In this document: positions 1,842 to 33,694 of the stretch, piece by piece
How positions within the stretch are numbered: the stretch's first letter is position 1
Layout of the letters: the number at the start of each line of letters is the position of its first letter
IMG/VR virus record: IMGVR_UViG_3300035703_000228
Span: 1 to 36,847 of that record
Reading direction: 5' to 3' (one strand)
Origin: a virus
Length of the DNA stretch: 36,847 nt
The notes under the pieces: generated by a model
Database searches by the model: none
What the model was told of the DNA's origin: nothing
What the model saw: the letters and a program-made list of their open reading frames with translations, nothing else
Translations under genes and position numbers: made by a program

Positions 1842-1866
1842 TTCAGGAATCCTTGCCGATTAGCAC

Positions 1867-1902
1867 AAAACAGGCTCGCGCTCGGTGTCCGAGCCTCGAG
1901 CC
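1867..1902 (-). terminator. Hairpin between HNH and terS: terminator-like or part of cos
   Basis: The 85-bp gap 1842-1926 holds a strong hairpin. The inner arms GCTCGG/CCGAGC (1880-1894, 3-base loop) are enclosed by GGCTC/GAGCC (1873-1877 and 1898-1902). On the minus strand it is followed by TGTTTTGTG. A G/A-rich run (GAGGGAGGGGAGGG in transcript sense) precedes it. The gap lies directly upstream of terS and downstream of HNH, which is where cos sites are found in several HK97-like phages. It could therefore be packaging DNA, a weak terminator, or both. Confidence 0.4.
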
Positions 1903-1926
1903 GTAGAGATTCGACCCTCCCCTCCC

Positions 1927-2281: not shown

Positions 2282-2731
2282 TCAAGCAATTTTCGCTGAC
2301 CAGGTATCCGCGACCGATAGCGCGCCGTACATCGCTGTCCGGAAGCGACGCAGCAGCGTCTGGTATTGAGCCGGGCTCATTCGCAGGCGCCGCGCTCGTG
2401 CCTCGTTCGGTTCGTCCCTTGGCGTGAGGTAGGTGACCTCGACGAGCTGCGCCCAGGAGTGACGTCCCCGGCATAAGTTGGTCACGCACCGCTCGACGAT
2501 GACGACCTCGTTCGGCCAGGTCTCGTCCGGCGTATATCCGCCAGGTGAGTTGATCCCGAGCACGATCTCGCGCAGGAGCTTTGTGCTGATTGATTCCCTC
2601 GGGTAGCCGAGCTCGCCCAGGCGATCTCGAGCGAATCTCGCCCATTGATACATTCGCCAATCGACGAACGCGGTCACGTCGGTCGCGTTCCTGGGTTTTC
2701 TCTCGTAGGCGTCGGCTGCGGCGGTGCTCAC
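2282..2731 (-). CDS. Q-like late regulator (probable antiterminator)
   Basis: 149 residues, GTG start at 2731 overlapping the rusA stop (GTGA). The middle is basic and helical. The C-terminal third (ARARRLRMSPAQYQTLLRRF) looks like a helix-turn-helix or sigma-region-4-like DNA-binding element, as in ArpU/RinA or Q-type late regulators. I see no metal-binding motif. The main argument is position: it is last in the early operon, right after rusA and before HNH-terS, the place of lambda Q. If it is an antiterminator it would explain how late transcription passes the terminators at 23825-23884 and 33651-33670. Function is inferred, not shown. Confidence 0.55.
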   Translation of the reverse strand: MSTAAADAYERKPRNATDVTAFVDWRMYQWARFARDRLGELGYPRESISTKLLREIVLGINSPGGYTPDETWPNEVVIVERCVTNLCRGRHSWAQLVEVTYLTPRDEPNEARARRLRMSPAQYQTLLRRFRTAMYGALSVADTWSAKIA

Positions 2732-3126: not shown

Positions 3127-3710
3127 CTCGTTCCCGTCCTGCGCGTTAATTGTCGGAATTGCGCGTAGGTTGAAATTTGGACAAACAGCTCCGGCCACGA
3201 GCTCGCCGTGCTGTAGAGCTCCGAGTTCGGGATCTCGAAGGTGTCGGTCTTCATCTCGAACGATGTCCCGTCGTTCCGATGCCTGGTCTGCCCTGCCTGG
3301 TAGAGCTGCGCTCGAGCGAGGAACTCGTCCTTCGGTAGCCAGCCGCAAACGGTGATCCGGTTGGTCGTTCGGTTGAACGACAGGAAAAGGTAGGCGTCGA
3401 CCTGGAACGCGACCTGGCTCGCGACGAGGTTGTTGACGTACTCGAGCCGCGGATCGACCGCGCGTGTCATCGTCTTGACGTCGAACGTCAGGCCGAAGAG
3501 CTCGAAATCCACGCCTCCGTCGTGTCGGCTGCTCGGCCGCATGAACTTCCGACCGATCGCGAAGTTGATCACGTTTTGACCGAGAATCCCGACGAGCTGC
3601 TGCTCGGGTGTTCCGTCGCTTCCGTCTCCGCGACGTCCGAGGTTCACGCTCGACGCTAACGTCTGCGACTCCTCGATCACCCGCGGATGTACGTCGACGG
3701 TGAATGCCAT
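3123..3710 (-). CDS. PD-(D/E)XK-like phage nuclease
   Basis: 195 residues, ATG at 3710. The pattern LVGILGQNVINFAIG, then HDGGVDFELFG, then TFDVKTM looks like a restriction-endonuclease fold: an acidic residue in GGVDF and the D-x-K core (FDVK), with an upstream GxxGQ helix where many members have GxxGE. The C-terminal half (YLFLSFNRTTNRITVCGW) resembles the beta strands that follow the active site in this superfamily. It is coupled to rusA by a GTGA overlap, so a role in DNA processing or repair is likely. Substrate unknown. The Gln in place of the usual Glu makes activity uncertain. Confidence 0.55.
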   Translation of the reverse strand: MAFTVDVHPRVIEESQTLASSVNLGRRGDGSDGTPEQQLVGILGQNVINFAIGRKFMRPSSRHDGGVDFELFGLTFDVKTMTRAVDPRLEYVNNLVASQVAFQVDAYLFLSFNRTTNRITVCGWLPKDEFLARAQLYQAGQTRHRNDGTSFEMKTDTFEIPNSELYSTASSWPELFVQISTYAQFRQLTRRTGTR

Positions 3711-4965: not shown

Positions 4966-5456
4966 TTCCCGATGTCTCCGATCAGTCCGCGGACCGGGTT
5001 GTCGTGCGCGAGCTGTGGGAGTTCCTGGCGCGTCTCCGCGACGTCGGCCAGTTGGTCGTAGTGCGACGCGAATCGCTTCTCGAGAAACGGGAGCGCATCG
5101 ACGCTCGACCAGGCGATGATCTTCCATCCGCCGAGCGCCTGGACGGCGCGCTCGACTTCTGGGATCGCCGGGCCTGCGTGATAGCTGCCCGATCTGACGT
5201 GCTGCAAAGCAATCGCCCAGGCTTCGCCCGAGGTCATCCGTTGCGCCTTGCGGAGCTGCTGAAAATGCCACGGATTCGGGAAGTACTCCTCGTGTAGCAT
5301 CAGGTGTTGAGCTGCCGCGCGAAACTCCTCGATCGACCAGGCGCTCATCGCCGAGTACCAAAGCTCGAGCGACTCCGGCGTGATCTTTCCGCCGGGTTTC
5401 ATCTCGGCGAGCGAGACCAGGATGCGCGCCATCTCGGCGCGATCACCCGGCTGCAT
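4962..5456 (-). CDS. Helicase-loader-like replication protein
   Basis: 164 residues, ATG at 5456, overlapping the end of the initiator gene by 14 bp. The first half (ESLELWYSAMSAWSIEEFRAAAQHLM, EYFPNPWHFQQLRK) resembles the short helical N-terminal domains of phage proteins that bind the host replicative helicase (G39P or lambda-P-like). It sits immediately downstream of an O-like initiator, the lambda O-P arrangement. No Walker motif, so not a DnaC-type ATPase loader. Function inferred from neighbours and resemblance. Confidence 0.55.
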   Translation of the reverse strand: MQPGDRAEMARILVSLAEMKPGGKITPESLELWYSAMSAWSIEEFRAAAQHLMLHEEYFPNPWHFQQLRKAQRMTSGEAWAIALQHVRSGSYHAGPAIPEVERAVQALGGWKIIAWSSVDALPFLEKRFASHYDQLADVAETRQELPQLAHDNPVRGLIGDIGK

Positions 5457-6611: not shown

Positions 6612-7271
6612 ATGGACGTCCAAACAAATCGAAGAGAAAGACTGCGACAGTTCGTCGAGGAGCAGTTCGCGGGAAACGTCTCCCGCTTCGCAGCCTCGGT
6701 CGGAAAGTCGCAGCCGCAGATCGCCGATATGCTGAACGGACGCAAGTCGTTCGGAGAGCGTGTCGCTCGAGCCCTCGAAGAATCGCTCGGATTGCCGAGC
6801 GGTTATTTCGACAGCGCATCCAGTTCCGGCACCGACGTCGAAGCCGCTCCGGAGGGTTTCGTCGCGATTCGGAGGGTGCGGATCAAAATGTCAGGGGGAG
6901 TGATCGGCTGGGCCGTGGAATGCCACGAGGAACAAGCCCCGCCGATATTTTTTCGGAAGGAATGGTTCGATCGTCGCGGGTTCAAACCGGAGAACCTGGT
7001 CGCGGTGAAGGTCACCGGCTCCTCGATGGAGCCTGGCCTTTATGACGGCGACACGATCGTTTTAAATCGCGCGGATACGCAGCTCGTCGACGGCGAGGTC
7101 TTCGCCGTGAGTTACGAAGGCGAGCTTGTAATCAAGCGAATGCGACGCGATGCCGGGGAATGGTTGCTGGCATCCGATAACCAGGACAAACGTCGCTACG
7201 GCGACAAGCGATGCACCGAGAACGTCGTGATCCTGGGTCGCGTTGTCTACAAAAACTCCGAGCGGATCTAA
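6612..7271 (+). CDS. cI: CI-like repressor, HTH plus S24 (LexA-type) peptidase domain
   Basis: 219 residues. It maintains lysogeny by binding operators on both sides of its gene, and is probably inactivated by RecA-stimulated self-cleavage. HTH at residues about 20-50 (NVSRFAASVGKSQPQIADML); C-terminal S24 domain with catalytic Ser138 in TGSSMEPG and Lys175 in ELVIKRM. The usual Ala-Gly or Cys-Gly cleavage pair is not seen in the linker; Ser-Gly-Gly at 94-96 (IKMSGGV) is at the expected place. It is divergent from cro, with predicted near-leaderless expression. Full length for the family. Confidence 0.92.
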   Translation: MDVQTNRRERLRQFVEEQFAGNVSRFAASVGKSQPQIADMLNGRKSFGERVARALEESLGLPSGYFDSASSSGTDVEAAPEGFVAIRRVRIKMSGGVIGWAVECHEEQAPPIFFRKEWFDRRGFKPENLVAVKVTGSSMEPGLYDGDTIVLNRADTQLVDGEVFAVSYEGELVIKRMRRDAGEWLLASDNQDKRRYGDKRCTENVVILGRVVYKNSERI

Positions 7272-10630: not shown

Positions 10631-12226
10631 ATGCGCGCCATTATCTACGCCCGGTATTCGACCGAACATCAGACGGAATCGACGATCCTCGATCAGCTCC
10701 GTCGATGCCGCGACTACGCGAAAAATCACGGATTAAAGATCGCCGCCGAGTACACCGACGAGGGTATCTCCGGCGCTGCGATAGGGAATCGACCAGGCGT
10801 GCAGAGGGCGCTCGCGGAGCTTGAGCGAGGGGATGTTCTCCTGGTCGTGGACACTACCAGGCTCTCCAGGTCGCAGGATCTCGCGCCGTTGCTCACCAGG
10901 CTACGGCATCGAGGCATCCGCGTCGTCGGCGTCCTGGACGGTTTCGATTCCGACAGCCGGACCGCGCGAATGCAGGCGGGTCTCTCGGGAATTATGAGCG
11001 AAGAATTTCGCGCGCAGATTGCCTCGAGAACACACTCGGCGCTCGACATGAGAGCGCGCCAGGGAAAGGCGACCGGCGGGAAGTGTTACGGGTACTCGAA
11101 GGCGGGAGAGATCATCGAGGCGGAGGCCGCGATCGTGCGCGAAGTGTTCGAGCGCGCCGCTCGAGGTGAGGCGATGAAGGCGATCGCGTCGGATCTGAAT
11201 CGACGCGGAGTGCCATCACCGGGCTCGACCTGGGAGCGAAAGGCTCGACGATCGGACGGGATGTGGCTCGTCTCGGGGATTCACTCGATGCTCGGGAACG
11301 ATCGCTACATCGGCCGGGTTGTGTGGAATCGCTCGGTCTGGAAGCGAGACCCGGACACCGGCAAGCGTCAGCGCGTCGAGCGCCCGCAGTCGGAATGGGT
11401 TGTCAGCGAAGGCCCGGCGATCATCGAGCTCGAGGCCTGGGACAAGGTGCGCGCCCTGGCGAAGCCGCGACAGTTTCACGGCGGAACAAAAGGTCGAGGT
11501 CCGAAGTACATCCTCTCGGGGATTCTGGTCTGCGGAGAGTGTGGCGGGAAGTTGGTCGCGACCGGCGCGAACGGCTCCTGGTACTACTGCGGCACCCGGC
11601 ACCAGGGAGGCGACTCGGCCTGCTCGATGGCGATCGGCGCCAGGCGGGACGTTGCCGAGGAGAAACTGCTCGAGCCGATCTCTTCGCAGCTCCTCTCGAA
11701 CGAGGCGGTCGAGTTGGCCGTCCAAATGATCCGCCAATGGCGACGGGATGAGCGCACCGAGTCGACGCGCCCGGCGGAGCTCGAGGAGCTCGATCACCGG
11801 ATCGCCAGGCTCGAGGCGCAAGTATCCCAGGGGATACTCGATCGGGAAGACATCGCGCCCTCGGTAGCCGCGCTCCTAGAGCGCCGTCAAGCGCTGCTGT
11901 CGAAGTCTTGGCGGAAGGCGAACTCGAGGTCGAACGTCGACCAGGCGGTCGCCGAGGAGGCCTATCGGCAGGCGGTCGCGAATATGCGGGAGGCTTTGCA
12001 GGGACCGGCGGCTCGAGCTCGAGCTGCGGTTCACGAGCTGCTCGGGGACGTAGTGTGCCGTCCCGAGGATGGAGCCCTGGTCGCTGTCGTGCGTGTAAAA
12101 ACCGCGCCGCTCCTGCGAGCGGCGGGTGTTTCACAAAATGGTAGCGGGGGCTCGCTTCCTTATTATGAAATGGTACCACTAGTGCGAGACGGTCCGCCCC
12201 TATTTTCCAAGCTGCTGGCGGCCTAG
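10631..12226 (+). CDS. int: Large serine recombinase (phage integrase)
   Basis: 531 residues. Catalyses attP x attB integration by double-strand cleavage through a Ser-DNA bond. Resolvase domain at residues 1-150: catalytic Ser10 in YARYST, arginines in DTTRLSRS (Arg77, Arg80). Recombinase domain about 165-300 (KGYGYS-like KCYGYSKAGEI, GNDRYIGRVVWN). Zinc ribbon with CGECGGK, YYCG and CSM, then coiled coil to about 470. AAGGTGA ribosome site. Last gene of the PL-like operon, convergent with Rz1 (27-bp overlap). The last about 35 residues (QNGSGGSLPYYEMVPLV) look like read-through of att DNA rather than conserved protein. Confidence 0.95.
   Translation: MRAIIYARYSTEHQTESTILDQLRRCRDYAKNHGLKIAAEYTDEGISGAAIGNRPGVQRALAELERGDVLLVVDTTRLSRSQDLAPLLTRLRHRGIRVVGVLDGFDSDSRTARMQAGLSGIMSEEFRAQIASRTHSALDMRARQGKATGGKCYGYSKAGEIIEAEAAIVREVFERAARGEAMKAIASDLNRRGVPSPGSTWERKARRSDGMWLVSGIHSMLGNDRYIGRVVWNRSVWKRDPDTGKRQRVERPQSEWVVSEGPAIIELEAWDKVRALAKPRQFHGGTKGRGPKYILSGILVCGECGGKLVATGANGSWYYCGTRHQGGDSACSMAIGARRDVAEEKLLEPISSQLLSNEAVELAVQMIRQWRRDERTESTRPAELEELDHRIARLEAQVSQGILDREDIAPSVAALLERRQALLSKSWRKANSRSNVDQAVAEEAYRQAVANMREALQGPAARARAAVHELLGDVVCRPEDGALVAVVRVKTAPLLRAAGVSQNGSGGSLPYYEMVPLVRDGPPLFSKLLAA
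12096..12124 (-). terminator. Intrinsic terminator for the late transcript, inside int 3' end
   Basis: Perfect 8-bp stem CGCCGCTC (12105-12112)/GAGCGGCG (12117-12124) with loop CTGC. On the minus strand the stem is followed by CGGTTTTTACAC, so late transcription would stop about 80-100 bases after the Rz1 stop. On the plus strand the T-run is poor (GGGTGTTTC). Confidence 0.6.
12136..12178. other. Candidate attP segment
   Basis: TGGTAGCGGGGGC (12139-12151) is the reverse complement of GCCCCCGCTACCA, which looks like the 3' end of a bacterial initiator tRNA (acceptor strand plus CCA, from memory). AAATGGTA occurs at 12136-12143 and again at 12168-12175. The segment lies at the end of int, where attP is often found for large serine integrases, and is more AT-rich than its surroundings. 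Crossover site not determinable from this sequence alone. Confidence 0.35.
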
Positions 12227-22739: not shown

Positions 22740-23390
22740 GCTTCACCATTGCTTGCAGAATCGCTCGCTGTTCGGCGACCGATTGCGACTTGGGAGTCGT
22801 GTCTTTTTTCGGGATGAAGTCGTCCGGGTTCCAGGCCTTGCCGCCCTTCTTCGGCCCTGCGGCGTTCGCCGTCGTGGATGCGAGCATTCCCATGCGCCAC
22901 ATCTCGACGTCGTAGCCGAAAGGCTCGAGCCCGTAGAACGCGATCCAGTAGGTGAACTCTGCGGAGCTCATTCGCTCCTGGAGCTCGCCCACCGTCGCGC
23001 CGAGTTGCGCTGCGAGGCGGAACCACATCAGTAGCTCCGGCTCGCCCGCTATTTTTTTTCAGCGTCTCCGACCGCGTTATCGGTGAGGAGCGACGCCTCG
23101 AGGATCGCCTTCGACAGTTGCGATAGGACCGCGCCGTCGAGCTTCGCGACCTCGAGAGGATCGTCGAAGAGACGGACGCCTTCCGCATCGCAGAGACCGA
23201 GCGAGACGACCTTGTAATCGGCGAGCGGTTCGCCCCCTTTCGAGGCCTCCGCTGCCCATTGCTGCAAGGTCACGCGCTCCCCGCCCGAGAGCCCGCGGAT
23301 GTAGAGCTTGACGCCCTGCACCTCGAGCTCACGGACGGAGGCCTTCGAGAACGCGCTGCTGATCGTTGCCTTGAGCAGCTCGCGGCTCAT
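22732..23390 (-). CDS. Tail chaperone fusion made by -1 frameshift (gpGT-like)
   Basis: Joined product of about 219 residues: the 113-residue gpG-like frame slips by -1 at the A8 run (23052-23059), reads ATA GCG GGC and enters the downstream frame containing MWFRLAAQLGATVGELQERM and ending AILQAMVKHG. The downstream frame is open up to the slip site, just as in lambda gpG/gpGT. The T-like part would bind the tape measure while the G part binds the tail tube protein. Independent initiation at the ATG at 23028 is possible but has no clear ribosome site. Confidence 0.85.
23049..23390 (-). CDS. Tail assembly chaperone, gpG-like (113 aa)
   Basis: Lies between tail tube and tape measure genes. Start MSRELLKATISSAFSKASVREL, core VKLYIRGLSGGERVTLQQW and YKVVSLGLCDAEGVRLFDD as in phage tail chaperones. 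It ends GAA AAA AAA TAG, with the stop directly after the slippery A run. The abundant short form should exceed the fusion form. Confidence 0.88.
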   Translation of the reverse strand: MSRELLKATISSAFSKASVRELEVQGVKLYIRGLSGGERVTLQQWAAEASKGGEPLADYKVVSLGLCDAEGVRLFDDPLEVAKLDGAVLSQLSKAILEASLLTDNAVGDAEKK

Positions 23391-23812
23391 TACGGAGTCA
23401 CCGTCGGGAGCGCGGTGATCTCGATCGTCACGTTCGCGACGACCTCGGCACCTTCAGCCGTGAAGGCGTCCAGGTCGAACTTCGTCACCAGGCCGGGGAA
23501 CTGCACCTGGTAGGCGCCGCCATCCGACAGGATGATCTGATAGTTGCCTGCGGTGCCCGCGACGAGCTTCGTCCGCATTGCTTCGTGAGCGGCGACGCTG
23601 CCGTCAAAGAGCAGCTTCAGCTCGACGTTCATCGGATCGTGCGATCCGATCATGCGCGTCGGGTAGCTCGAGTCCATCGTGTAGACGTCGACGGTCTTGC
23701 GGTTGTAGCCGCTCCACTTGATTTCCTGCACCTGGGCCAGGGTTGAGAACACCTCCGGGGAGGCGGCGTTGCCGACCTTAAAGAGGGTGCCGGTCGAAAT
23801 ACTTGCAGCCAT
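23390..23812 (-). CDS. Major tail tube protein
   Basis: 140 residues from ATG 23812 (GGAG eight bases upstream). Forms the stacked rings of the tail tube. Sequence STGTLFKVGNAASPEVFSTL, QVQEIKWSGYNRKTVDVYTM and the C-terminal VTIEITALPTV are typical of lambda gpV/HK97-like tube proteins of this size. Preceded by two intrinsic terminators with no spacing to its ribosome site. Stop overlaps the chaperone region at 23390. Confidence 0.88.
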   Translation of the reverse strand: MAASISTGTLFKVGNAASPEVFSTLAQVQEIKWSGYNRKTVDVYTMDSSYPTRMIGSHDPMNVELKLLFDGSVAAHEAMRTKLVAGTAGNYQIILSDGGAYQVQFPGLVTKFDLDAFTAEGAEVVANVTIEITALPTVTP

Positions 23813-23824
23813 TGTGATCACTCC

Positions 23825-23848
23825 AAAAAAAAGACCGCCGAGGCGGTC
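23825..23848 (-). terminator. Intrinsic terminator 2 upstream of tail tube
   Basis: Transcript sense: GACCGCC-TC-GGCGGTC (arms 23833-23839 and 23842-23848; loop effectively CTCG) followed by eight T (23825-23832). The T-run is immediately followed by the GGAG ribosome site of the tail tube gene. Confidence 0.85.
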
Positions 23849-23860
23849 GTTGTTGAAAGG

Positions 23861-23884
23861 AAAAAAAAGGCGCCCGAAGGCGCC
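23861..23884 (-). terminator. Intrinsic terminator 1 after tail terminator gene
   Basis: Transcript sense: GGCGCC-TTCG-GGCGCC (23884-23869) with an exceptionally stable UUCG loop, then eight T (23861-23868). Located 25 bp after the stop of the tail-terminator gene. Confidence 0.88.
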
Positions 23885-23908: not shown

Positions 23909-24295
23909 TCACCGATAAACGAATTCAAAGTCCTGCTGAACGATTCGCATCGTTCGATCGCCGAGCGCGTCGGCTTGCTCCTGCTGTTGCGACAAGCGCG
24001 ACATCAGGACCGTCACTCCGCTCTGCGTTCCAGACCATCCGTCGAGACCGACGCGAATCGCCTCGACGACCGGCGCTACCTGGGACATCGTTTCGCCAAC
24101 CGTCTCGATGCGTAGCACCGCGCGAAAGAGGAGCGGGTTGTTCCCCAGGGTGCGCGCCATGCCTTGCCCGCTTGTGCGGCTTACGGCGACCGCCGGGAGC
24201 GTCGGCTCCTGGACGATGATCTCGCGGTAAACCCGAGACCCGGCGCCGGTGTTCAGCGCGGAGACCTTTGCGATGATTGCGTTCTCGATGCTCAC
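23909..24295 (-). CDS. Tail terminator/completion protein (DUF3168-like)
   Basis: 128 residues. The pattern IENAIIAKVSAL at the start, REIIVQEPTLPAVAVSRTSG, then RIETVGETMSQVAPVVEAIR and a C-terminal beta strand IVQQDFEFVYR fits the DUF3168/lambda gpU-like group that caps the tail. Position between the gp10-like protein and tail tube agrees. Last gene before the tandem terminators. Confidence 0.8.
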   Translation of the reverse strand: MSIENAIIAKVSALNTGAGSRVYREIIVQEPTLPAVAVSRTSGQGMARTLGNNPLLFRAVLRIETVGETMSQVAPVVEAIRVGLDGWSGTQSGVTVLMSRLSQQQEQADALGDRTMRIVQQDFEFVYR

Positions 24296-25139: not shown

Positions 25140-25714
25140 CAGAACACCTTGAACGGTGACAGGAGCGCGGTGAATCCGAGCGGAAACTCGGTGACGATCG
25201 TTCCGGTAAGCGTCGCTTCGCGGTTCTCGTAGAGGTGCGCGATCATCAGCTTGATCGCCGCCTTGATTGCAGGCGGTACGTCAGTCGGCGCACCGTAGCC
25301 CGCGACGTAGCGGATGCGGACGTCGTTGATGTGACCGCGCGAGCTCGGCCAGGTCTGGTTATAGGCCTGGAAGATCTTCCCAGGTTGCGCGAACGGGCCC
25401 GCGTCGTTGACGACCTGGTAGGTGTTCGCCGCGAGCGTCTGCGTGTTGCCCTCGATGTCGATGTAGGTGATCGCGGTGACACTTGCGAGCGGCGCCTTCG
25501 GGAGCTGAAAGTAGAGCGGGAACTGGTCGACCTTGAGCTCCCAGGTCGTATTCACGAACGAGCGCCCGGTGTAGGCCTCGGCGTATTCGCGCGCGGCCTT
25601 CGTGAGCGCGAAGAGGATCTCGTCGTCCTGGTTGCCGTCGATGCGGCAATGCGAGCGCGCCTCTTCGACCGTTACCGGCTCACCCGCCGGAGCTGTGATC
25701 AGGGTGTGATTCAT
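25139..25714 (-). CDS. Head-tail connector (gp6 / phiE125 gp8-like)
   Basis: 191 residues. Start ITAPAGEPVTVEEARSHCRI and DDEILFALTKAAREYAEAYTGR are typical of phiE125 gp8/HK97 gp6-like connectors that form a ring under the portal. C-terminal helices (VPPAIKAAIKLMIAHLYENRE) are also typical. ATGA overlap with the gene before. Confidence 0.92.
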   Translation of the reverse strand: MNHTLITAPAGEPVTVEEARSHCRIDGNQDDEILFALTKAAREYAEAYTGRSFVNTTWELKVDQFPLYFQLPKAPLASVTAITYIDIEGNTQTLAANTYQVVNDAGPFAQPGKIFQAYNQTWPSSRGHINDVRIRYVAGYGAPTDVPPAIKAAIKLMIAHLYENREATLTGTIVTEFPLGFTALLSPFKVF

Positions 25715-25986
25715 AACTGCCGCACCTGTACCAGGACCGAGCGGTCCTCAATGCGTCCGCCCGGAGTCGTGACGCGGTTCGTGATGAGGTAGTCCGTCCC
25801 GGCGACTCCGCCGGAGAGGAAGGCGCGCGTCACGTTCGCCGTCACACCTTCCGAGACGATCGAGAGCGCTGCGGGAATTTCCCAGGCCGAGGTCGTGACC
25901 GCGTCCCCGTTCAGCCAGGGATTCCAGTCGACCTCGAAGTCGATCGTCGAGTTCGGATCTTTTGTGAATGCCGCGATGATCGTCAT
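25711..25986 (-). CDS. Small virion protein, fibre/tail-adaptor type
   Basis: 91 residues. Pattern FTKDPNSTIDFEVDWNPWL, a middle with beta strands and the C-terminal TDYLITNRVTTPGGRIEDRS, ending in a basic strand. Similar small proteins beside head-tail connectors are annotated as phage fibre-tail adaptor proteins; probably an Ig-like fold. Coupled by ATGA on both sides. Confidence 0.6.
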   Translation of the reverse strand: MTIIAAFTKDPNSTIDFEVDWNPWLNGDAVTTSAWEIPAALSIVSEGVTANVTRAFLSGGVAGTDYLITNRVTTPGGRIEDRSVLVQVRQL

Positions 25987-27524
25987 GCAGCGATTCTCCT
26001 GTTATTGCGTGAGACCTTGATCGTGCGGCCTTCCGCTTCGACCTCGATCGAACTGTCAGCGCCGACCTTGAGCGTCGAGCGCTGCGGAATAATTTCGCGG
26101 CGATCCTGGAACGGAACCTTCAGCTCTCGAGAGTCCGGCGTGAAGGTGCGATTCCGTAGCCGTCCGCTGACGGTCGCATCGCCCTCCGCGTCGCCATCGA
26201 CGGAGCCGCGTCCGATTGCCTGTCCGCTGATCTCGGCGGCGCCGTAGACCAGGCCCAGGATCGGACCGCGTCCGTAGATCGTGACGATCGAGCTCGCCTC
26301 GCCCGCCGCGTCGCCGACCTGGCGCCCGTAGGCGAGGATCGAAGCGCTCGCGCTTGAGGTGCCGCTCTCGTTGCCGTCGACCGCGCCGCGCCCGTAGGCC
26401 GGAACATCCTCGACGGTGCTCTCGCCCGAGATGGCGCCCTGGACGATTGAGCGCCCGTCGATCGAGGCCTCGACCGTGGCGTCGCCCGCGATCGAGCCGG
26501 AGCCCATCCCGAAGGCGCGCGCCTCGGCGCTGACCGTCGCCTCTCCTGCGATCGAGCCGTCCGTCCGGCCGAATGCCAGGATGACCGCGCTCGAGCTCGA
26601 GGAGCCGATCGCCGCGCCAGGTGCGGAGATCTTCCGCTGCCCGGAGCCCTCGACCGTTGCCAAGCCTTCGGCGGAGCCGGAGCCCTGGGCGGTTGCCAGG
26701 ATGTCGCCGGACACCGAGCTCGAGGAGCTCGAGAAGCCCTCGGCCGTAGCGGTCGCCAGGATTTCGCCGCTCGCCGCCGCAGAGCCCGCAGAGGCGGCAT
26801 CTGCCCGACCGTAGGCGAGGACATCCCCCGCGATCGTGCTCGCCCCCTGCGCCGCCCCATTAGCCGGGAAGACGCCCTGGATTGAGCCGTCGACCGTCGA
26901 GGTGCCGGACGTTTCGCCGCGGCTCGAGAACCTTGCGGTCCCCGAGGCGGTTGCAGTCGCCGAGCCCTCGGCCTGGCCGGATGCCTGTCCGGTTGCGAAC
27001 GCATCGCCCGAGACCGACGAGCTGCCCGAGCTCGAAGCGTCGAGCCCGGTGCGCGCCTGGACGTCGGCCGCGACCGTTGCCGTGCCCGCCGCAGCGCCCT
27101 CGCCCTCGATGCGCCCGGAGCCGTCGGCGGTTGCCGTGGAGCTCGAGCTCGAGGAGGCAGAGATCGGCCCCGACGCGATGACCGTGCCGTCGACCGTTGC
27201 AGATCCCGTCGAGCTTGCGCTCGAGGAGCCCTGCGCGCTGATTGACGCGGAGGTCGCGCCGGTTCCATCAGCGGAGCCGGTTGCCCTGGCGAATGCTCGA
27301 GAGGTTGCCGACGTCGTCGACGAACCCGCGGAGCTTGCGATCGGACGACCGATCGCGTCGATGTCACCTTCGACCGTTGCCGAACCGACACTCGCGCCCG
27401 GCGAGTAGATCTTCGGAACGAGCGCGCCGGTGACGGTCGCCGACCCTGCGGCCGTACCGTAGAGGGTGTCCCCTACGGCATAGCCGAAAAGCCAGTAGTC
27501 GCTCTGGACGTATAGGCCGCTCAT
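25983..27524 (-). CDS. Repetitive Ala/Gly/Ser-rich virion protein (513 aa)
   Basis: Residues about 20-450 consist of imprecise repeats of roughly 22-26 residues of the type GSATVSGDILAxGRAxGxAxG, with Ser-rich stretches (SSSSSSTATADGS). The C-terminal 55 residues are different, charged and strand-rich (SRELKVPFQDRREIIPQ, RTIKVSRNNRRIAA), and probably form the attachment domain. N terminus YVQSDYWLFGYAVGDTLYG is aromatic. Probably an extended beta-structured decoration or fibre. GGAGG ribosome site. Long open frames on the opposite strand here are by-products of the repeats. Function unknown. Confidence 0.75.
   Translation of the reverse strand: MSGLYVQSDYWLFGYAVGDTLYGTAAGSATVTGALVPKIYSPGASVGSATVEGDIDAIGRPIASSAGSSTTSATSRAFARATGSADGTGATSASISAQGSSSASSTGSATVDGTVIASGPISASSSSSSTATADGSGRIEGEGAAAGTATVAADVQARTGLDASSSGSSSVSGDAFATGQASGQAEGSATATASGTARFSSRGETSGTSTVDGSIQGVFPANGAAQGASTIAGDVLAYGRADAASAGSAAASGEILATATAEGFSSSSSSVSGDILATAQGSGSAEGLATVEGSGQRKISAPGAAIGSSSSSAVILAFGRTDGSIAGEATVSAEARAFGMGSGSIAGDATVEASIDGRSIVQGAISGESTVEDVPAYGRGAVDGNESGTSSASASILAYGRQVGDAAGEASSIVTIYGRGPILGLVYGAAEISGQAIGRGSVDGDAEGDATVSGRLRNRTFTPDSRELKVPFQDRREIIPQRSTLKVGADSSIEVEAEGRTIKVSRNNRRIAA
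26150..27480. repeat. Degenerate coding repeats, about 70 bp period
   Basis: Recurring GAG-CTC-GAG, CCG-TCG and GCG-ACC-GT blocks in the repetitive protein gene. Periodicity is seen at protein level (G-x-A-T-V-x-G-x-I); DNA units are diverged. Not CRISPR: no constant repeat-spacer alternation. Confidence 0.6.
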
Positions 27525-27567
27525 TTAACCTCCGAGCCGGTCTCGAAGTCGGACGCGGCCAGTTTCA

Positions 27568-27735
27568 TCACGGAGCCGGATCAGCTCCTTCTGCCTTCGG
27601 TGCGAGCTGCGGTTGCGCCTGGCGTTGCAGCTTGTCGATCAATCCGGCGACAACCTCGAAGGGTTGCTTTGCGAGTGATGCCAGGACGACATTCGCCTCT
27701 TCGGCGGTGAGTTCAAACTTCAAGACGTTATTCAC
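27568..27735 (-). CDS. Small helical phage protein (55 aa)
   Basis: GTG start at 27735 chosen because GGAG lies five bases upstream; the longer frame lacks such a site. Sequence MNNVLKFELTAEEANVVLAS continues with KQPFEVVAGLIDKLQRQAQ. Small proteins of this kind (ELT-xEE-xxVL-xLxxQPF) accompany fibre genes in many phages. Unknown function. Confidence 0.65.
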   Translation of the reverse strand: MNNVLKFELTAEEANVVLASLAKQPFEVVAGLIDKLQRQAQPQLAPKAEGADPAP

Positions 27736-27766
27736 AAGATCTCCGAGTTGTGGCTCAAGAAAAACA

Positions 27767-28330
27767 TCACGGCGCGCTGTCAACACTAAAGTCGATCGTC
27801 GCGGTGTCTAGTACAGACCCGCTAGACGCAAGCCGAATCTCTATCGAAAGTGACCGCTCGACAAAGTTGTTCGTCGCGCTCAACGTCCAGTCGCGAGTCG
27901 TCGACAAGCTGATCCAAGATCCCGTCGTTCCGCCGACCGACCCGCCCGAGCCGGACCAGGTTGCATAGACCTCGAACTGCGAAGCGGTCCCCGCGACGAG
28001 CCACTCGCCGCTGATCGACACGAGCGTTCCGGAATTGTTTGTTCGAGACGCTTGCCCGTTACTCGAGAGACGGTAAGTGGCGGTTGCAGTTCCGCCGATA
28101 CCGGCCTTCGAGAAGTTGAATGCCGACTGGTTAGAGATGGCGACGCTCGCGTTCGACTTCCCGTAAAAGTTTGAGAGCGAAATCGCGCCGCTCGCGACGC
28201 CCGCTAGGGTTCGCAGCGCCGTCTCGTTGAGACTGCTCGTCGCGGTTGCAGACCGACCGAGCTCGAGGTTGATAGATTGTCCGGAAGTCGATCCGCCGAT
28301 GCTGATCGCTCCGGAGCTATTGAGAGGCAT
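27767..28330 (-). CDS. Putative virion/fibre-associated protein (187 aa)
   Basis: Start MPLNSSGAISIGGSTSGQSI, then NLELGRSATATSSLNETALR and ISLSNFYGKS: a recurrent N-terminal motif in phage structural proteins. The rest is Ser/Thr/Gly-rich beta structure (TWSGSGGSVGGTTG, RSLSIEIRLASSGS). Likely a virion or tail-fibre accessory. Start overlaps the previous stop as TAATG. Confidence 0.65.
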   Translation of the reverse strand: MPLNSSGAISIGGSTSGQSINLELGRSATATSSLNETALRTLAGVASGAISLSNFYGKSNASVAISNQSAFNFSKAGIGGTATATYRLSSNGQASRTNNSGTLVSISGEWLVAGTASQFEVYATWSGSGGSVGGTTGSWISLSTTRDWTLSATNNFVERSLSIEIRLASSGSVLDTATIDFSVDSAP

Positions 28331-28692
28331 TAGGCCGCGACGTCAGCCGGTGCTGCGGGAGCTTCCGGCTCCGGCGCCCAGGGGAGCGGCTTCTGCTCGA
28401 GCGCGGCCTTCTCGACCTCCTTCGCGACGACGTAGCCGATGTGCGCCTGGTACGGTGCGAGCTGATCTTCCTGCGACCACACCCAGGCCTCGACCTCCGC
28501 GGGAGTGAGCTGCGAAAAGTCGACGAAATTCTCGGGAGCCGGATCGCCAACGTTGACCGAGATCGGAAGCTCAAAGCTGCACCCGCTGTCGATGCCCTTT
28601 AGCGTGACGTCGACCTCCTTCACTACGTTTTGCAATTCGCCGACGTTGTGAACTCGGACCGCGTTAATCTTCAGCGTGTATTCGATAGCCAT
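28330..28692 (-). CDS. Small fibre-region protein (120 aa)
   Basis: N terminus MAIEYTLKINAVRVHNVGEL and VVKEVDVTLKGID form a strand-rich domain; the middle (DFSQLTPAEVEAWVWSQED) is conserved-looking among small phage proteins found next to fibre genes (DUF7936-like). C terminus is Pro/Ala-rich. Could be a fibre assembly accessory. Function unknown. Confidence 0.6.
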   Translation of the reverse strand: MAIEYTLKINAVRVHNVGELQNVVKEVDVTLKGIDSGCSFELPISVNVGDPAPENFVDFSQLTPAEVEAWVWSQEDQLAPYQAHIGYVVAKEVEKAALEQKPLPWAPEPEAPAAPADVAA

Positions 28693-28703
28693 TCTGAATG
28701 CTC

Positions 28704-31700
28704 CTAGTGAACCCGAGCGCGCAGCTCGGCGACTTCTTTCTTTAGCGCGACGAGCTCCTTCGCGAGCTCGATCGCCGACACCATCGCGGCGTTGCCGTAT
28801 GCGACCGAGAGGTCGCCGTCGTGCGACTCGATGACCGCCTCGGGTAACACCTCGCGGAGTGACTGCGCCGAGACGCCCGCCTGGGTGATCTCGACGTCGG
28901 TTCGGTCATAGATGCCGCTCTTCACATTCGCGAGATTGACGACAAAGCCGTCGTCGAGGCTGCGCCAGTTGGCCTTTACTCGTTCGTCCGAGTAGGCGGT
29001 GACGTTGCCAGTCGCGGTGACATTCCCGCCGCTGCTGAATGTGACTTTAATGTTCGCATCGGCGATGCTACTCGAAGTGCTGTATTCAAAAACGAGCTCG
29101 CCGCCGCCGCCGTTATCTCGCGATTTCCAGTAACCAAACGCACCGTGATAAAACGCTGTCGTCGCTTTAATTGTTGTCCCCGACAAATTCCCACTTAATG
29201 TGCCACCAGAGAGCGGGAGCGCGTAGCTGCTGTAGTTGCTGCTATGTAAGACGTCGACGTAGCTTGAGTAGGCAGAGCTAGATCCGAAACTTTGCTGCCA
29301 TATTCTCATGCCAATCGCGTCTTTCCTGAACATGACGAGATTGTCGGCGCCGCCAGACCCGTCGGTGTATGACCGAAGGTGCAGGTAGTCCGCCCACGGC
29401 GCGGTGTTATTGTTTGCCCACGATGTAAAGCCAAATACTGCTCGCCCTGCTGCATCAGAGTTTGGCGATTTTATCCGATGGTCATAAGTTCTTAATCGAT
29501 CTGCATCTGTGGCGAGCGATGCACTTCCTGCGCTCCCTGTTACATTGATTGACCACGTCCCGCTTGCGCCGCTACCCGTTAAGGACGGCGAGTACGAGGT
29601 GTAGTTACCGCTGTGCAGGAATGGGCTGTATGCACCGCCGTTGTAAAAAACTGGGTTGTGTTCGTATACCCAAGCCCAGCTCCCGCTGCCGTTGTGTAGG
29701 AAGACTTTGCTTGAAACCCCGGCGTCGCTTCGTGTCAGCCCGAACCCCCAAGGGCTGCTGCTACTGGTCGTCAGGGTTAGCGGCTGCGATCCGCCTCCGC
29801 TGATGTTTAATGTGCCGGTGATTGTTCCGCCGCTTATTGGGAGCGCATAGCTGCTGTAGTTTGCGGCGTGGAGGACTTGATTTCCGCTTTGCTGTAACGC
29901 TACCGAGAAATTTGCTGCGGCTGTCGTAATCTGAAGCGGATACGACGTGCCCCCGGTTGCGTCATATATTGTAAGCCCGCCTCCCGAACTTGAGTAAATA
30001 GTCCACTTTTTGCCGGAGCCGCCAGTCGCGTGCAGATACAAAGCTGCGGCGTTGGAGTTTGCGATGTAGAGCGTTCGCTCTGTTCCGGAGATGGCGTTAA
30101 AGCCGTTAAAGCCGGAACCGATACCGACATCGCCGGTTATAGTTCCGCCGCTCAACGGCAAAGCGTAGCCGCTGTAGTTTGCGGCGTGGAGGACTTGGTT
30201 TCCGCTCTGCTGTAACGCCACAAGCGAGTTCACTGCCGATGCGTCAATGCGAAACTTCCGTGTAAGCCCCGTTAAGCCAACCGTGTTGTCATCGTGGACG
30301 AGGAACTCGAAGTATGTTCCCCAGTGCGATGCGGAGTTACTTCGACCAAACTCAATAGCGCTTCCGATCGAGTCTGACCCGCGAAGAACTACTGCCCCCT
30401 TGCCTGCGTTACTTGCTCTCTGAATTATTAGCGGAGACGAATAATTTGTTTGATCTGTAATAGACGCTGTTGTCGTGTCGCCTAGCCCAAGATAAATTTG
30501 TCCGCCTAAATCAGCGATCCTGACATCGCCATACACAACGGATGGTGATGTAGGCGACCCGCCACGAAGGAATAAATCGCCGCCAGCAAGTCCAGCGCCG
30601 TTGTCAGAGTCGCCCGCCTTAATGATTAGGTTTCTGCCACGCCCCGTGCCCTTCGTTGCGGGAGTGGCGCCACCCGACCCGATAACCGAAATTGTCCACG
30701 GCCCTGCTTCGTTAGTCGATGAACCAAAGTTGATGTTCGCGCCCTGCGCGAATGATGCGTTCCCCGTCATCGTCCCGCCGCTTAACGGGAGATAGCTTGA
30801 CAGAGCCGAGCTTGTGATATAGCCGCTGGGGTTTGTTGAGTTATACGGCGTGTATCCAAGGGCGGTCGTCACCTGGCCGCTTGATAACGCAAAAGAAGTA
30901 AAGTTTCCGCTATGAGCGACAGTCCGCCACGATCCCCAGGTGCTCTCGCTCGTCGCCTGGCGAATTGCGATTCCGTCGCCGATGCTTAACTGCGAAGGCC
31001 ACCCGCCGCTGCCGCCGTTGGTGTCCCATCCGGCGACGGTCAGGATGTGGGAGTAGAGCGCGCTCGCGGTAACCGGCGGACTACTTACGGATGAATTGCT
31101 TTTGAAATCGGCAGACAAGGCATAGCCGGTCTTGCCCTGCGGCTGATCGTTTGTCGATCGAGTATCAAGAAATGCGACGAATCGCGAGGAGCCCGTAATT
31201 GACGCGCTGCTTGTGATGTAGCTATTCGGATTCGTGCTGTTGTACGGCGTGAACCCGAGCGCGGTCGTGACGTTGCTCAAGGTAATCTCGCCGCGGATCG
31301 TCGCGGAGCTCTTGTTCTCGACGTTGCCCAGGCCGACGTCGCTCGAGGTGAGAGTGACCGCGCCCGTCCGACCGGCGACCGAGGTGACCGCGTCGGAGAA
31401 AGACATCACGCCCGTCGAGCTGTTGTAGCTCAACGAACCCGAGGCGGAGATTGAGGTGCGAGCTCGAGCCTGGGTGAAGTAGAGATTCGTCGATCCTTCG
31501 GCGAGCGAGTCGGTCGAACCAGGCGAGGCGCTGATCTCGATGTAGGTCGAGCCAGTCCATCGGTAGGTTTTATTCGTGTCGATCGTGACGTAGATCTTGC
31601 CCGTCTCGCCGGTACCAGGGAGCGACGCAAAGTTCGCGACCTCGACAACATCGTCCACATAGGACGGAAGCTGTGTGGACGGAACCTTCCCGGCGGCATC

Positions 31701-31844
31701 GAGTGAGGCGTAGCCATTTGCGACGCCCTTATTCGATGCGACCTCCTTCTGCCCGAGCTCGGTATTAAGCCCGGTGAAGTTGGCGTCGACTTCCTGGTGA
31801 GTAAGAGCGGCGCCCTTACCCGCGCGAGTGACGATCGTTGCCAC
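28704..31844 (-). CDS. Long tail fibre with S74 intramolecular chaperone (1046 aa)
   Basis: N terminus (ATIVTRAGKGAALTHQEVDANF) fits fibre attachment domains. The shaft contains ALPLSGGTITG-type repeats (four), two near-duplicate QQSGNQVLHAANYSSYALP blocks and FTPYNSTNPNSYITSS motifs. The C-terminal about 110 residues are a peptidase S74 domain: YSDERVKANWRSLDDG with catalytic Ser/Lys, DRTDVEITQAGVSAQSLREVLP and a final coiled coil (ELAKELVALKKEVAELRARV). S74 domains trimerise and are then cleaved off. Codon use and GC drop in about 29000-31300, a sign of exchange. Confidence 0.93.
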   Translation of the reverse strand: MATIVTRAGKGAALTHQEVDANFTGLNTELGQKEVASNKGVANGYASLDAAGKVPSTQLPSYVDDVVEVANFASLPGTGETGKIYVTIDTNKTYRWTGSTYIEISASPGSTDSLAEGSTNLYFTQARARTSISASGSLSYNSSTGVMSFSDAVTSVAGRTGAVTLTSSDVGLGNVENKSSATIRGEITLSNVTTALGFTPYNSTNPNSYITSSASITGSSRFVAFLDTRSTNDQPQGKTGYALSADFKSNSSVSSPPVTASALYSHILTVAGWDTNGGSGGWPSQLSIGDGIAIRQATSESTWGSWRTVAHSGNFTSFALSSGQVTTALGYTPYNSTNPSGYITSSALSSYLPLSGGTMTGNASFAQGANINFGSSTNEAGPWTISVIGSGGATPATKGTGRGRNLIIKAGDSDNGAGLAGGDLFLRGGSPTSPSVVYGDVRIADLGGQIYLGLGDTTTASITDQTNYSSPLIIQRASNAGKGAVVLRGSDSIGSAIEFGRSNSASHWGTYFEFLVHDDNTVGLTGLTRKFRIDASAVNSLVALQQSGNQVLHAANYSGYALPLSGGTITGDVGIGSGFNGFNAISGTERTLYIANSNAAALYLHATGGSGKKWTIYSSSGGGLTIYDATGGTSYPLQITTAAANFSVALQQSGNQVLHAANYSSYALPISGGTITGTLNISGGGSQPLTLTTSSSSPWGFGLTRSDAGVSSKVFLHNGSGSWAWVYEHNPVFYNGGAYSPFLHSGNYTSYSPSLTGSGASGTWSINVTGSAGSASLATDADRLRTYDHRIKSPNSDAAGRAVFGFTSWANNNTAPWADYLHLRSYTDGSGGADNLVMFRKDAIGMRIWQQSFGSSSAYSSYVDVLHSSNYSSYALPLSGGTLSGNLSGTTIKATTAFYHGAFGYWKSRDNGGGGELVFEYSTSSSIADANIKVTFSSGGNVTATGNVTAYSDERVKANWRSLDDGFVVNLANVKSGIYDRTDVEITQAGVSAQSLREVLPEAVIESHDGDLSVAYGNAAMVSAIELAKELVALKKEVAELRARVH

Positions 31845-31850
31845 GTTCGA

Positions 31851-32282
31851 TTATTCCTCGGAGATCGTCAGGGTGCTTGAGGCGAATTCCGGAATGATCA
31901 AGTTCGACACGGCGAGCGATGCGGTGAGCGCGCCCTTATAGAGGATCTTCCCTGCGCCGCTCGAGGCGGTGCCGACCGCAAAATGGGAGATCGTGTTCGA
32001 GCCCCCGGTGCATTGCGGGAAGGTGATCGCGGCGGCGTTCGTGACGGAGTTGTTCGTCACGGTCCAGCCGCCCGAGGTGCGCGCGACGGCGACTCGAGCG
32101 TAGCCGGTGTAGCTTGCCTCGCTCGTCGTCTGGTCGCCTGCCTCGCCAGGATCGGCGGTGTGCAGCGAGACGTAGAGGTTCGTGTTCGGCGAGCTCGCCG
32201 CGTTGTCTGCCAGGTTGGCAATCGCCGTACCCTGGAAAAACAGCTTCATCAAGTCATTCTCGAATGTGTTGCCCTTTGACAT
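31851..32282 (-). CDS. gp80-like phage structural protein (143 aa)
   Basis: Start MSKGNTFENDLMKLFFQGTA and TNLYVSLHTADPGEAGDQTT, then EASYTGYARVAVARTSGGW and ITFPQCTGGSNTISHF: a very common phage protein annotated as tail fibre (Gp80) family, found in many siphoviruses near fibre genes. Probably a small virion protein. Precedes the S74 fibre by 6 bp. Confidence 0.8.
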   Translation of the reverse strand: MSKGNTFENDLMKLFFQGTAIANLADNAASSPNTNLYVSLHTADPGEAGDQTTSEASYTGYARVAVARTSGGWTVTNNSVTNAAAITFPQCTGGSNTISHFAVGTASSGAGKILYKGALTASLAVSNLIIPEFASSTLTISEE

Positions 32283-32293
32283 TTGTCAATCTC

Positions 32294-32911
32294 CTAGACT
32301 GTCCAGTTGACATCCCGCGGCCTCGGGACACCGTGAAAACAAACCACGCGCTCTTCGCCAGGCCATCGAGCGCCAAACTTTCGCGAGACGATCTGTCTCG
32401 GGAATAACTCCTGGAGGCGGTCCGGCTCGAGGCCGACCGTCTCCGAGATCCAGGCCTGGTCGCCCCATCGGGTCGGTTCCAGGTAATCCGCAGCGCGCTC
32501 CTCGCTGAACTCGAGCGCGATGTTTGAGAAGTCTCCGCACCAGGCCATCACGCCCGACGCGCAGCTCGACGGCCGACCGAAGTCGGACAGCATCGAGAAC
32601 TGGTGCGGGTAATTGGCGATATCGTCGATCGAGCCGACGATCACGGTGTCCAGGTCGAAGTACAGCGTCGGCCCGGTGAACCATTCAAAGAGCTCGAGCT
32701 TCGACCACCATCCCGACCAGGACCGCAGGATCGGAACTCGGTCGCACGGAACCTCGACGTCCGAAAGACACACGAATCGGTGCGGGATCGAGAGATGCGC
32801 GGTGACGCCCTGGTGAAGGCGCTCGACGTAGTCGATCCCGTAGTCCCCGCCGGAGCGGAGAACACAGGCGACCGTCAGATCACCGCGCGCAGTTCTACTC
32901 TCGGATAACAC
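32294..32911 (-). CDS. GT-A-type glycosyltransferase-like protein
   Basis: About 205 residues from a GTG at 32911; start uncertain because no ATG lies near and the open frame upstream is a shadow of the neighbour. LTVACVLRSGGDYG, RFVCLSDVEVP, then WWSKLELFEWFTGPTLYFDLDTVIVG, divided by a DxD motif (DLD) that binds metal-nucleotide sugar in GT-A enzymes. C terminus CFHGVPRP fits phage homologues. Overlaps the previous gene by 37 bp. Sugar and acceptor unknown; possibly the virion or the fibre. Confidence 0.65.
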   Translation of the reverse strand: MLSESRTARGDLTVACVLRSGGDYGIDYVERLHQGVTAHLSIPHRFVCLSDVEVPCDRVPILRSWSGWWSKLELFEWFTGPTLYFDLDTVIVGSIDDIANYPHQFSMLSDFGRPSSCASGVMAWCGDFSNIALEFSEERAADYLEPTRWGDQAWISETVGLEPDRLQELFPRQIVSRKFGARWPGEERVVCFHGVPRPRDVNWTV

Positions 32912-33522
32912 TCGAGCGCCGTGTCGCGCGTTGCGTTGAAGATCTCGAGGTCCGGATGTCGCTGCGAGGCCTCGTTGAAGGCCGACGCGAACATCTGATA
33001 GGGCGACGCCTTGTTCAGCGCGCCCGGATGATCCCCGAACCAATGTCTCTTCGCCCCCATCTTCATATCGAAGCCGAGCAGCACGATCGGCGAGCAGCTC
33101 GCCAGGACGGCAAGGTTCACCGCCTGGAATCCCGAGTTGTCGCCGCGATGTATTCGACCAGGCTCGAGCGAAAAGCCCTGCCGGTCGACGCTCTCGATGT
33201 AATGCAGGCGCCACCGTCTAGCGGCTCCGGCGTCCTGCGTTACTCGTAAACCGTTGAAGCTCGCCGCGCCCTGGTGGAGATCCCACCATTCCGGGTCCGC
33301 GGCATAGAGCACGTCGGCCCAGGGTGCGAGCTTGTAGTTGTCGTTGACGACGATCACCGCCGCGCGTTCGCGACAGTAGTCGACGTCCTCTGCGGTAAGA
33401 CTAGGCCCGCTCGCGACGACGACGCAGGGACGGCCCCGCAGTCTCGCGAAAGGGTTCCGGCGCACCGCCGAGCGCCTGGGTTTCTGTAGGACCGGGAGCT
33501 CCGTCTCGAGCTGCCCATCCAT
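32875..33522 (-). CDS. DUF115/GT29-like putative glycosyltransferase
   Basis: 215 residues from ATG 33522 (AGGTGG upstream). Core motifs: CVVVASGPSLTAEDVDYC (nucleotide-binding loop), IVVNDNYKLAPWADVLYAADPEWW, RGDNSGFQAVNLAVL and IVLLGFDMKMG with HWFGDH. This pattern is seen in DUF115 or sialyltransferase-like phage proteins. C terminus ends in a basic strand overlapping the GT gene. The two genes probably form one sugar-transfer module. The upstream part of the open frame overlaps the small gene before it and is not used. Confidence 0.6.
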   Translation of the reverse strand: MDGQLETELPVLQKPRRSAVRRNPFARLRGRPCVVVASGPSLTAEDVDYCRERAAVIVVNDNYKLAPWADVLYAADPEWWDLHQGAASFNGLRVTQDAGAARRWRLHYIESVDRQGFSLEPGRIHRGDNSGFQAVNLAVLASCSPIVLLGFDMKMGAKRHWFGDHPGALNKASPYQMFASAFNEASQRHPDLEIFNATRDTALECYPRVELRAVI

Positions 33523-33637
33523 TGATGACCGCCACCTCGGCAAGCTCGCCCTCGAGCTCGTCGCCGACGTTGAACGATCGGACCTGGTGCGCCCCGTCGG
33601 GAACACCGCGGAAGGGAATCTTGCAGATTGCTTTCAT
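33401..33637 (-). CDS. Small conserved phage protein (78 aa)
   Basis: MKAICKIPFRGVPDGAHQVR and FNVGDELEGELAEVAVINGWA resemble the small proteins placed after capsid genes in many phages. The C terminus is Pro/Arg-rich. Overlaps the next gene by 122 bp. Function unknown. Confidence 0.65.
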   Translation of the reverse strand: MKAICKIPFRGVPDGAHQVRSFNVGDELEGELAEVAVINGWAARDGAPGPTETQALGGAPEPFRETAGPSLRRRRERA

Positions 33638-33650
33638 TGAAAGAAACGGA

Positions 33651-33670
33651 GCGGGAGGTTGCCCTCCCGC
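33651..33670 (-). terminator. Terminator-like hairpin after the major capsid gene
   Basis: Transcript sense GCGGGAGG-GCAA-CCTCCCGC (8-bp stem, GNRA loop) followed by TCCGTTTCTTTC, i.e. a broken T-run. Located 25 bp after the capsid stop. Partial termination could make capsid mRNA more abundant than downstream messages. Confidence 0.65.
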
Positions 33671-33694
33671 CCCGCTCTCCTGTCGTCAGTCAGA

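Follow-up and report, generated by a model that had tools for sequence, protein, structure and literature searches.

Predicted tandem intrinsic terminators adjoining the tail tube ribosome-binding site in the late operon of an HK97-like phage

Terminators inside the late operons of known phages

The closest described counterpart of the block studied here is found in phage HK97 (genome paper: Juhala et al. 2000). In the HK97 record (NC_002167) a putative terminator is annotated between the tail terminator and major tail genes, at positions 6692–6719, with the downstream gene starting at 6733; other putative terminators are annotated after the portal gene, after the capsid gene (5192–5213), and after the major tail gene, and further ones before the tape measure gene and before gene I. 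By our reading of their sequences, HK022 and Pseudomonas phage D3 each have an intrinsic terminator before the major tail gene, a single hairpin with a clear T-run, together with a hairpin after the capsid gene; their records do not annotate terminators. The lambda U-V junction was also read for a terminator and none was found there. In T7, the terminator T-phi lies inside the late operon near the capsid and tail genes. In LUZ100 there is a terminator after the capsid gene (PMC10134795), and the late clusters of SPP1 are bounded by potential terminators (PMC6316719). A literature search, made mostly outside subscription journals, found no study of terminators abutting the Shine-Dalgarno (SD) sequences of late genes.

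We analysed a 36.8-kb IMG/VR virus record (the window, that is, the whole stretch of DNA analysed, 36,847 nucleotides), in which the late genes lie on the minus strand. An internal terminator in the late direction occurs here at the junction of the tail terminator and major tail (tail tube) genes, the upstream gene being assigned by position, and as in HK97 the SD of the major tail gene lies within a few bases of the T-run. Unlike HK97, which has one hairpin with an interrupted T-run, the junction here carries two perfect hairpins, each followed by T8, and the second T-run touches the GGAG. The T-run to SD distance is a few bases longer in HK022 and many bases longer in D3, in contrast to the contact seen here. 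The companion hairpin after the capsid gene is present here, in HK97, in HK022, and in D3. The locus also shares with T7 T-phi and LUZ100 a late-operon terminator in the neighbourhood of capsid and tail genes; those two phages, however, have their own RNA polymerase and local promoters, and their terminator lies behind the capsid gene rather than against the tail tube SD. Judged by these likenesses, we regard the block as a doubled, cleaner example of an arrangement already recognised, not as a new one.

The tandem block and its genomic setting

Both terminators sit in the 96-nt gap 5′ of the tail tube gene, whose ATG is at position 23812, among late genes that are otherwise tightly packed. 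An earlier note on this DNA had described two perfect terminators directly before the tail tube ribosome site, and direct reading of the minus strand confirmed this. Hairpin 1 (GGCGCC-UUCG-GGCGCC; 23869–23884) is followed by a T8 run (23861–23868) about 45 nt 5′ of the tail tube ATG, then by a 12-nt AAC-rich linker, CCTTTCAACAAC (23849–23860), which separates the two terminators. Hairpin 2 (GACCGC-CUCG-GCGGTC; 23833–23848) and its T8 run (23825–23832), both also read in the relatives, follow the linker, and this T-run touches the GGAG SD of the tail tube gene (23821–23824), which all relatives keep. The spacing of about 12 bases given in the same note agrees with the linker at 23860–23849, and its further statement that the second T-run adjoins the GGAG with no room for a promoter is correct, the GGAG beginning at 23824 and the ATG at 23812. 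A promoter scan of the terminator-SD gap likewise found none, and there would be no room for one after the second T-run.

Both hairpins have the form of intrinsic (Rho-independent) terminators, a GC-rich hairpin and then a U-run. When the strict pattern of six perfect pairs and at least seven T was sought in the window, it occurred at two sites on the minus strand, at none on the plus strand, and in none of 200 shuffles that kept the strand's dinucleotides. When folded by itself, the 76-nt block gave −28.6 kcal/mol relative to a shuffle mean of −16.9 (z −4.05, 0/200). We take the hairpins for genuine terminator structures under selection, lying midway along the late operon and predicted from their sequence to stop transcription.

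The tail tube (major tail) protein gene (140 aa; 23390–23812, minus strand) matches phrog_158 (E 8e-11) and PF06199 (E 5e-8), and is followed by the tail assembly chaperone and then the tape measure gene. The gene directly upstream of the block (128 aa; 23909–24295, minus strand) had no phrog match; it is conserved in relatives and occupies the position of the HK97 tail terminator, an assignment made by position and not by family. The genes ahead of the block have their matches in the head-tail adaptor, head closure, and Neck1/tail completion families. The whole minus-strand order runs Q-like, HNH, TerS, TerL, portal, protease, capsid, a fibre-like insert, head-completion genes, tail tube, chaperone, tape measure, and tail tip genes. 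The phage is temperate, as the record also encodes a serine integrase, an S24 repressor, and RecT/YqaJ. Just 3′ of the major capsid gene, CGGGGCGGGAGGGCAACCTCCCGCTCCG followed by TTTCTTTC (33647–33674, minus strand) makes up the companion hairpin, with a weaker T-run, and a terminator-like site after the last late gene (12105–12124, minus strand) is the probable end of the late operon.

Conservation of the hairpins among relatives

Tail tube searches of IMG/VR yielded 46 usable loci that included the start region, with protein identities of 57–100% and 20 distinct 55-nt upstream sequences among them; searches of INPHARED and GTDB genomes for tail tube relatives found none. The earlier note held that absence of the hairpins from close relatives would speak against its description; hairpin 2 is present in all relatives. 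A GC hairpin with a U-run, starting 34–43 nt 5′ of the tail tube ATG, was found in 46/46, and the U-run lay 0–2 nt from the SD in nearly all of them, the exceptional loci L032–L034 having a 6-nt interruption between the two. The stems of hairpin 2 vary among relatives (GACCGC, GCCGCC, GGCCGC, and AGCCCGC), and in a count over the named structure 96.1% of cells were paired versus 29–70% in slid controls, showing that its pairing has been conserved despite sequence change. Six cells were changed on both sides, with AU, GC, and CG at one pair; as this one varying pair alone shows several compensated types, the compensatory changes appear to give moderate support for the stem.

Hairpin 1 with its T-run was found in every near-clade relative, L007 and L013 having a different stem. 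Hairpin 1 of the distant clade (L024, L030, L054, L069, and L072) lacks a T-run, leaving a single T-run terminator at this place. By this comparison, only the near clade has a predicted terminator in tandem. The AAC-rich linker is partly conserved in most relatives, and pairing between the linker and the U-run/SD is possible, weakly and in the near clade only. A nut site (boxA-boxB) was considered for the linker and rejected: the linker, as CTTTCAAC, is boxA-like in the near clade only, and distant relatives have a GTAACCAC-type sequence or no linker.

The tail tube family offers a clean comparative case, with one or two terminators, changing stems, and a fixed place, and it could serve to measure prophage insulation, transcript ratios, or leader shaping. 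Terminators internal to late operons are marked putative in phage records, and the family supplies a comparative case for why they adjoin the ribosome sites of virion genes. It also cautions annotators against reading a perfect terminator within a phage operon as the end of that operon.

Insulation with antitermination, and the alternatives

AlpA carries RNA polymerase (RNAP) past intrinsic terminators, including the tandem tR′ in reporters, and both AlpA and Q antiterminators act whatever the terminator sequence (PMC7969949). In Tn916, terminators insulate the integrated element and are accompanied by processive antitermination (PMC11658703), and a structural basis for phage antitermination at an intrinsic terminator is described in a further report (PMC6624301). 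The present locus is like the Q and AlpA systems in having intrinsic terminators shortly before genes, where antiterminated RNAP would pass them, and unlike those systems in that the factor here is a weak sequence match only. Taking together the perfect stems and their conservation, the terminators at the same junction of HK97, HK022, and D3, the temperate lifestyle, the candidate Q-like gene, and these precedents, we favour a combination of insulation and antitermination, and consider it on balance probable that the tandem intrinsic terminators stop unmodified RNAP and that antiterminated polymerase passes them during lytic growth.

This temperate HK97-like siphophage has a long late operon, and in the mechanism that we propose the block would act within it as tandem intrinsic terminators, placed at the tail-completion/tail tube junction. 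Stray unmodified host RNA polymerase, in a lysogen or early in infection, would be halted here and at the other internal terminators, whereas in lytic growth the late polymerase would read through with the help of a bound antiterminator, for which the 149-aa Q-like protein is the likeliest candidate, and the tail tube would be translated from the read-through message, with the SD beginning right after the U-run. That polymerase terminates here in vivo, that the Q-like protein brings about read-through, and that the block insulates are inferences. Read-through of some kind is expected because essential genes of the operon lie beyond the block. The proposal in the earlier note that the tail genes depend on read-through, antitermination, or processing is supported, since terminators in the middle of the late operon would make downstream expression need one of the three, and a candidate Q-like protein is present. 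Insulation alone leaves the regular contact between U-run and SD unexplained.

The candidate antiterminator is a 149-aa protein (2282–2731, minus strand) encoded between RusA and HNH/TerS/TerL. It matches phrog_79 (anti-termination protein Q-like) weakly (E 1e-4), over its residues 24–140 and residues 23–139 of 156 in the family, and had no match in Pfam and no sequence match in the PDB. Its AlphaFold model had a pLDDT of 57, and the Foldseek matches of this low-confidence model were meaningless. Homologues in relatives are 65–94% identical; the gene was found in 7/16 relative contigs tested, many of them fragments, and the HNH-TerS-TerL order after the Q-like gene is kept in relatives. In the distant clade, whose contigs may be fragments or may hold a different Q, no relative was found by sequence, and yet this clade keeps terminator 2, which speaks against the proposed mechanism. 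A phrog_79 family search of the relatives gave no match but did give matches in 12/14 controls, so that its outcome is uninformative. The gene occupies the lambdoid Q position beside RusA, and with its weak family match it is a candidate for Q.

An alternative is that hairpin, U-run, and SD act mainly as a 5′ leader, in which the message is processed upstream, the hairpin guards the new 5′ end, and the poly-U aids ribosome loading, raising tail tube output. The 0–2-nt contact of U-run and SD in nearly all relatives fits such a leader. For a broader view, two terminator sequences were scanned in IMG/VR irrespective of the downstream gene, and the results given here are those among the matches listed. 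With CCTTCGGGCGGC-T6, 85/122 of the matches listed had a same-strand gene with an SD within 300 nt, the distances clustering at 0–10 nt. When the SD was at most 10 nt from the T-run, capsid, tail tube, sheath, or scaffold genes made up 15/28, versus 5/48 at larger gaps among the matches listed (Fisher p 8e-5, a post hoc comparison; the group scans covered the 25 largest families, and the far-group counts may miss single matches). The capsid proteins of this near-SD set were at most 27% identical among the matches listed. A replicate with CCCGCTTCGGCGGG-T6, predicted beforehand, did not repeat the enrichment; 90/122 of the matches listed had a same-strand gene and SD within 300 nt, many at exactly 6–7 nt, but tape measure and minor tail genes dominated. 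Enrichment before the highest-copy genes, post hoc in the first survey and absent from its replicate, was therefore rejected. All that the two surveys have in common, among the matches listed, is that terminators abut the SDs of late virion genes. Sequestration or opening of the SD by the block was also rejected, since predicted accessibility differs between the clades, low in the near one and mostly high in the distant one, with no conserved effect and no conserved opening function. Near-clade hairpin 1 has kept its T-run although this lies well away from the SD, a point in favour of termination over a leader role alone. We consider the leader unlikely as the main function.

The copies found with CCCGCTTCGGCGGG-T6 share ATTGCC(C/T)GGAG before the start, and in loci L315–L433, from many phages, the cassette CCCGCTTCGGCGGG-TTTTTT-ATTGCC(C/T)GGAG-ATG precedes tape measure genes as well as other late genes. 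In INPHARED, 1812 records match a related composite sequence. In another locus, L160, a major tail-like gene (3247–3672, minus strand) is preceded by a tandem duplicated AAC-hairpin-T9-GGAG, with a GGAG in each copy. Formulaic cassettes of this kind (CCCGCTTCGGCGGG-T6-ATTGCCYGGAG and the L160 duplicate) recur before unrelated late genes. The wider proposal, that hairpin, U-run, and SD form a dual-purpose cassette across tailed phages, serving as a terminator for unmodified polymerase and as a 5′ leader in the read-through message, seems to us rather improbable.

The terminators might instead be leaky attenuators that fix transcript ratios along the operon without an antitermination factor. Single terminators are rarely complete, which counts in favour of this explanation, as do the internal late terminators annotated or reported in HK97, SPP1 (PMC6316719), and LUZ100 (PMC10134795). 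However, two perfect terminators in series would cut the message for the most abundant tail protein, contrary to the demands of stoichiometry, and a candidate Q is present; we consider attenuation quite unlikely.

The suggestion in the earlier note of a head/tail expression switch, a block opened at a set time so that tail genes come on after head genes, found no support. Although the block lies between head-completion and tail genes, the division it marks is between head-completion genes and the tail tube, rather than plainly between head and tail. Other late junctions also have similar hairpins or annotated terminators, after the capsid gene here and at several places in HK97, and distant relatives have one T-run hairpin. 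Besides the terminator and the SD there is no conserved regulatory element, since the AAC-rich linker, lacking in the distant clade, does not qualify as a conserved boxA, and nothing at the block points to regulated read-through. Such a switch is very improbable. The hairpins might also be mere leftovers, or mark recombination boundaries between genes, with no role in expression. To this idea we give hardly any credence, for although many unrelated phages have terminator-plus-SD cassettes at their gene junctions, and L160 has one in tandem duplicate, pairing and U-run have been maintained through strong sequence change.

Two other features of the record were observed. The capsid gene is separated from the head-tail adaptor gene by about 8 kb (25711–33640, minus strand), made up of fibre-like and low-complexity genes that include those for a 1046-aa protein (28704–31844) and a 513-aa Ser/Ala/Gly-rich protein (25983–27524); distant relatives have only about 2 kb there. 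At the HNH-TerS junction (1842–1926, minus strand), a highly conserved G-rich stretch, GAGGGAGGGGAGGGTCGAATCTCTACGG...GGACACCGAGCG, is kept in 11 relatives and is probably an HK97-type cos region.
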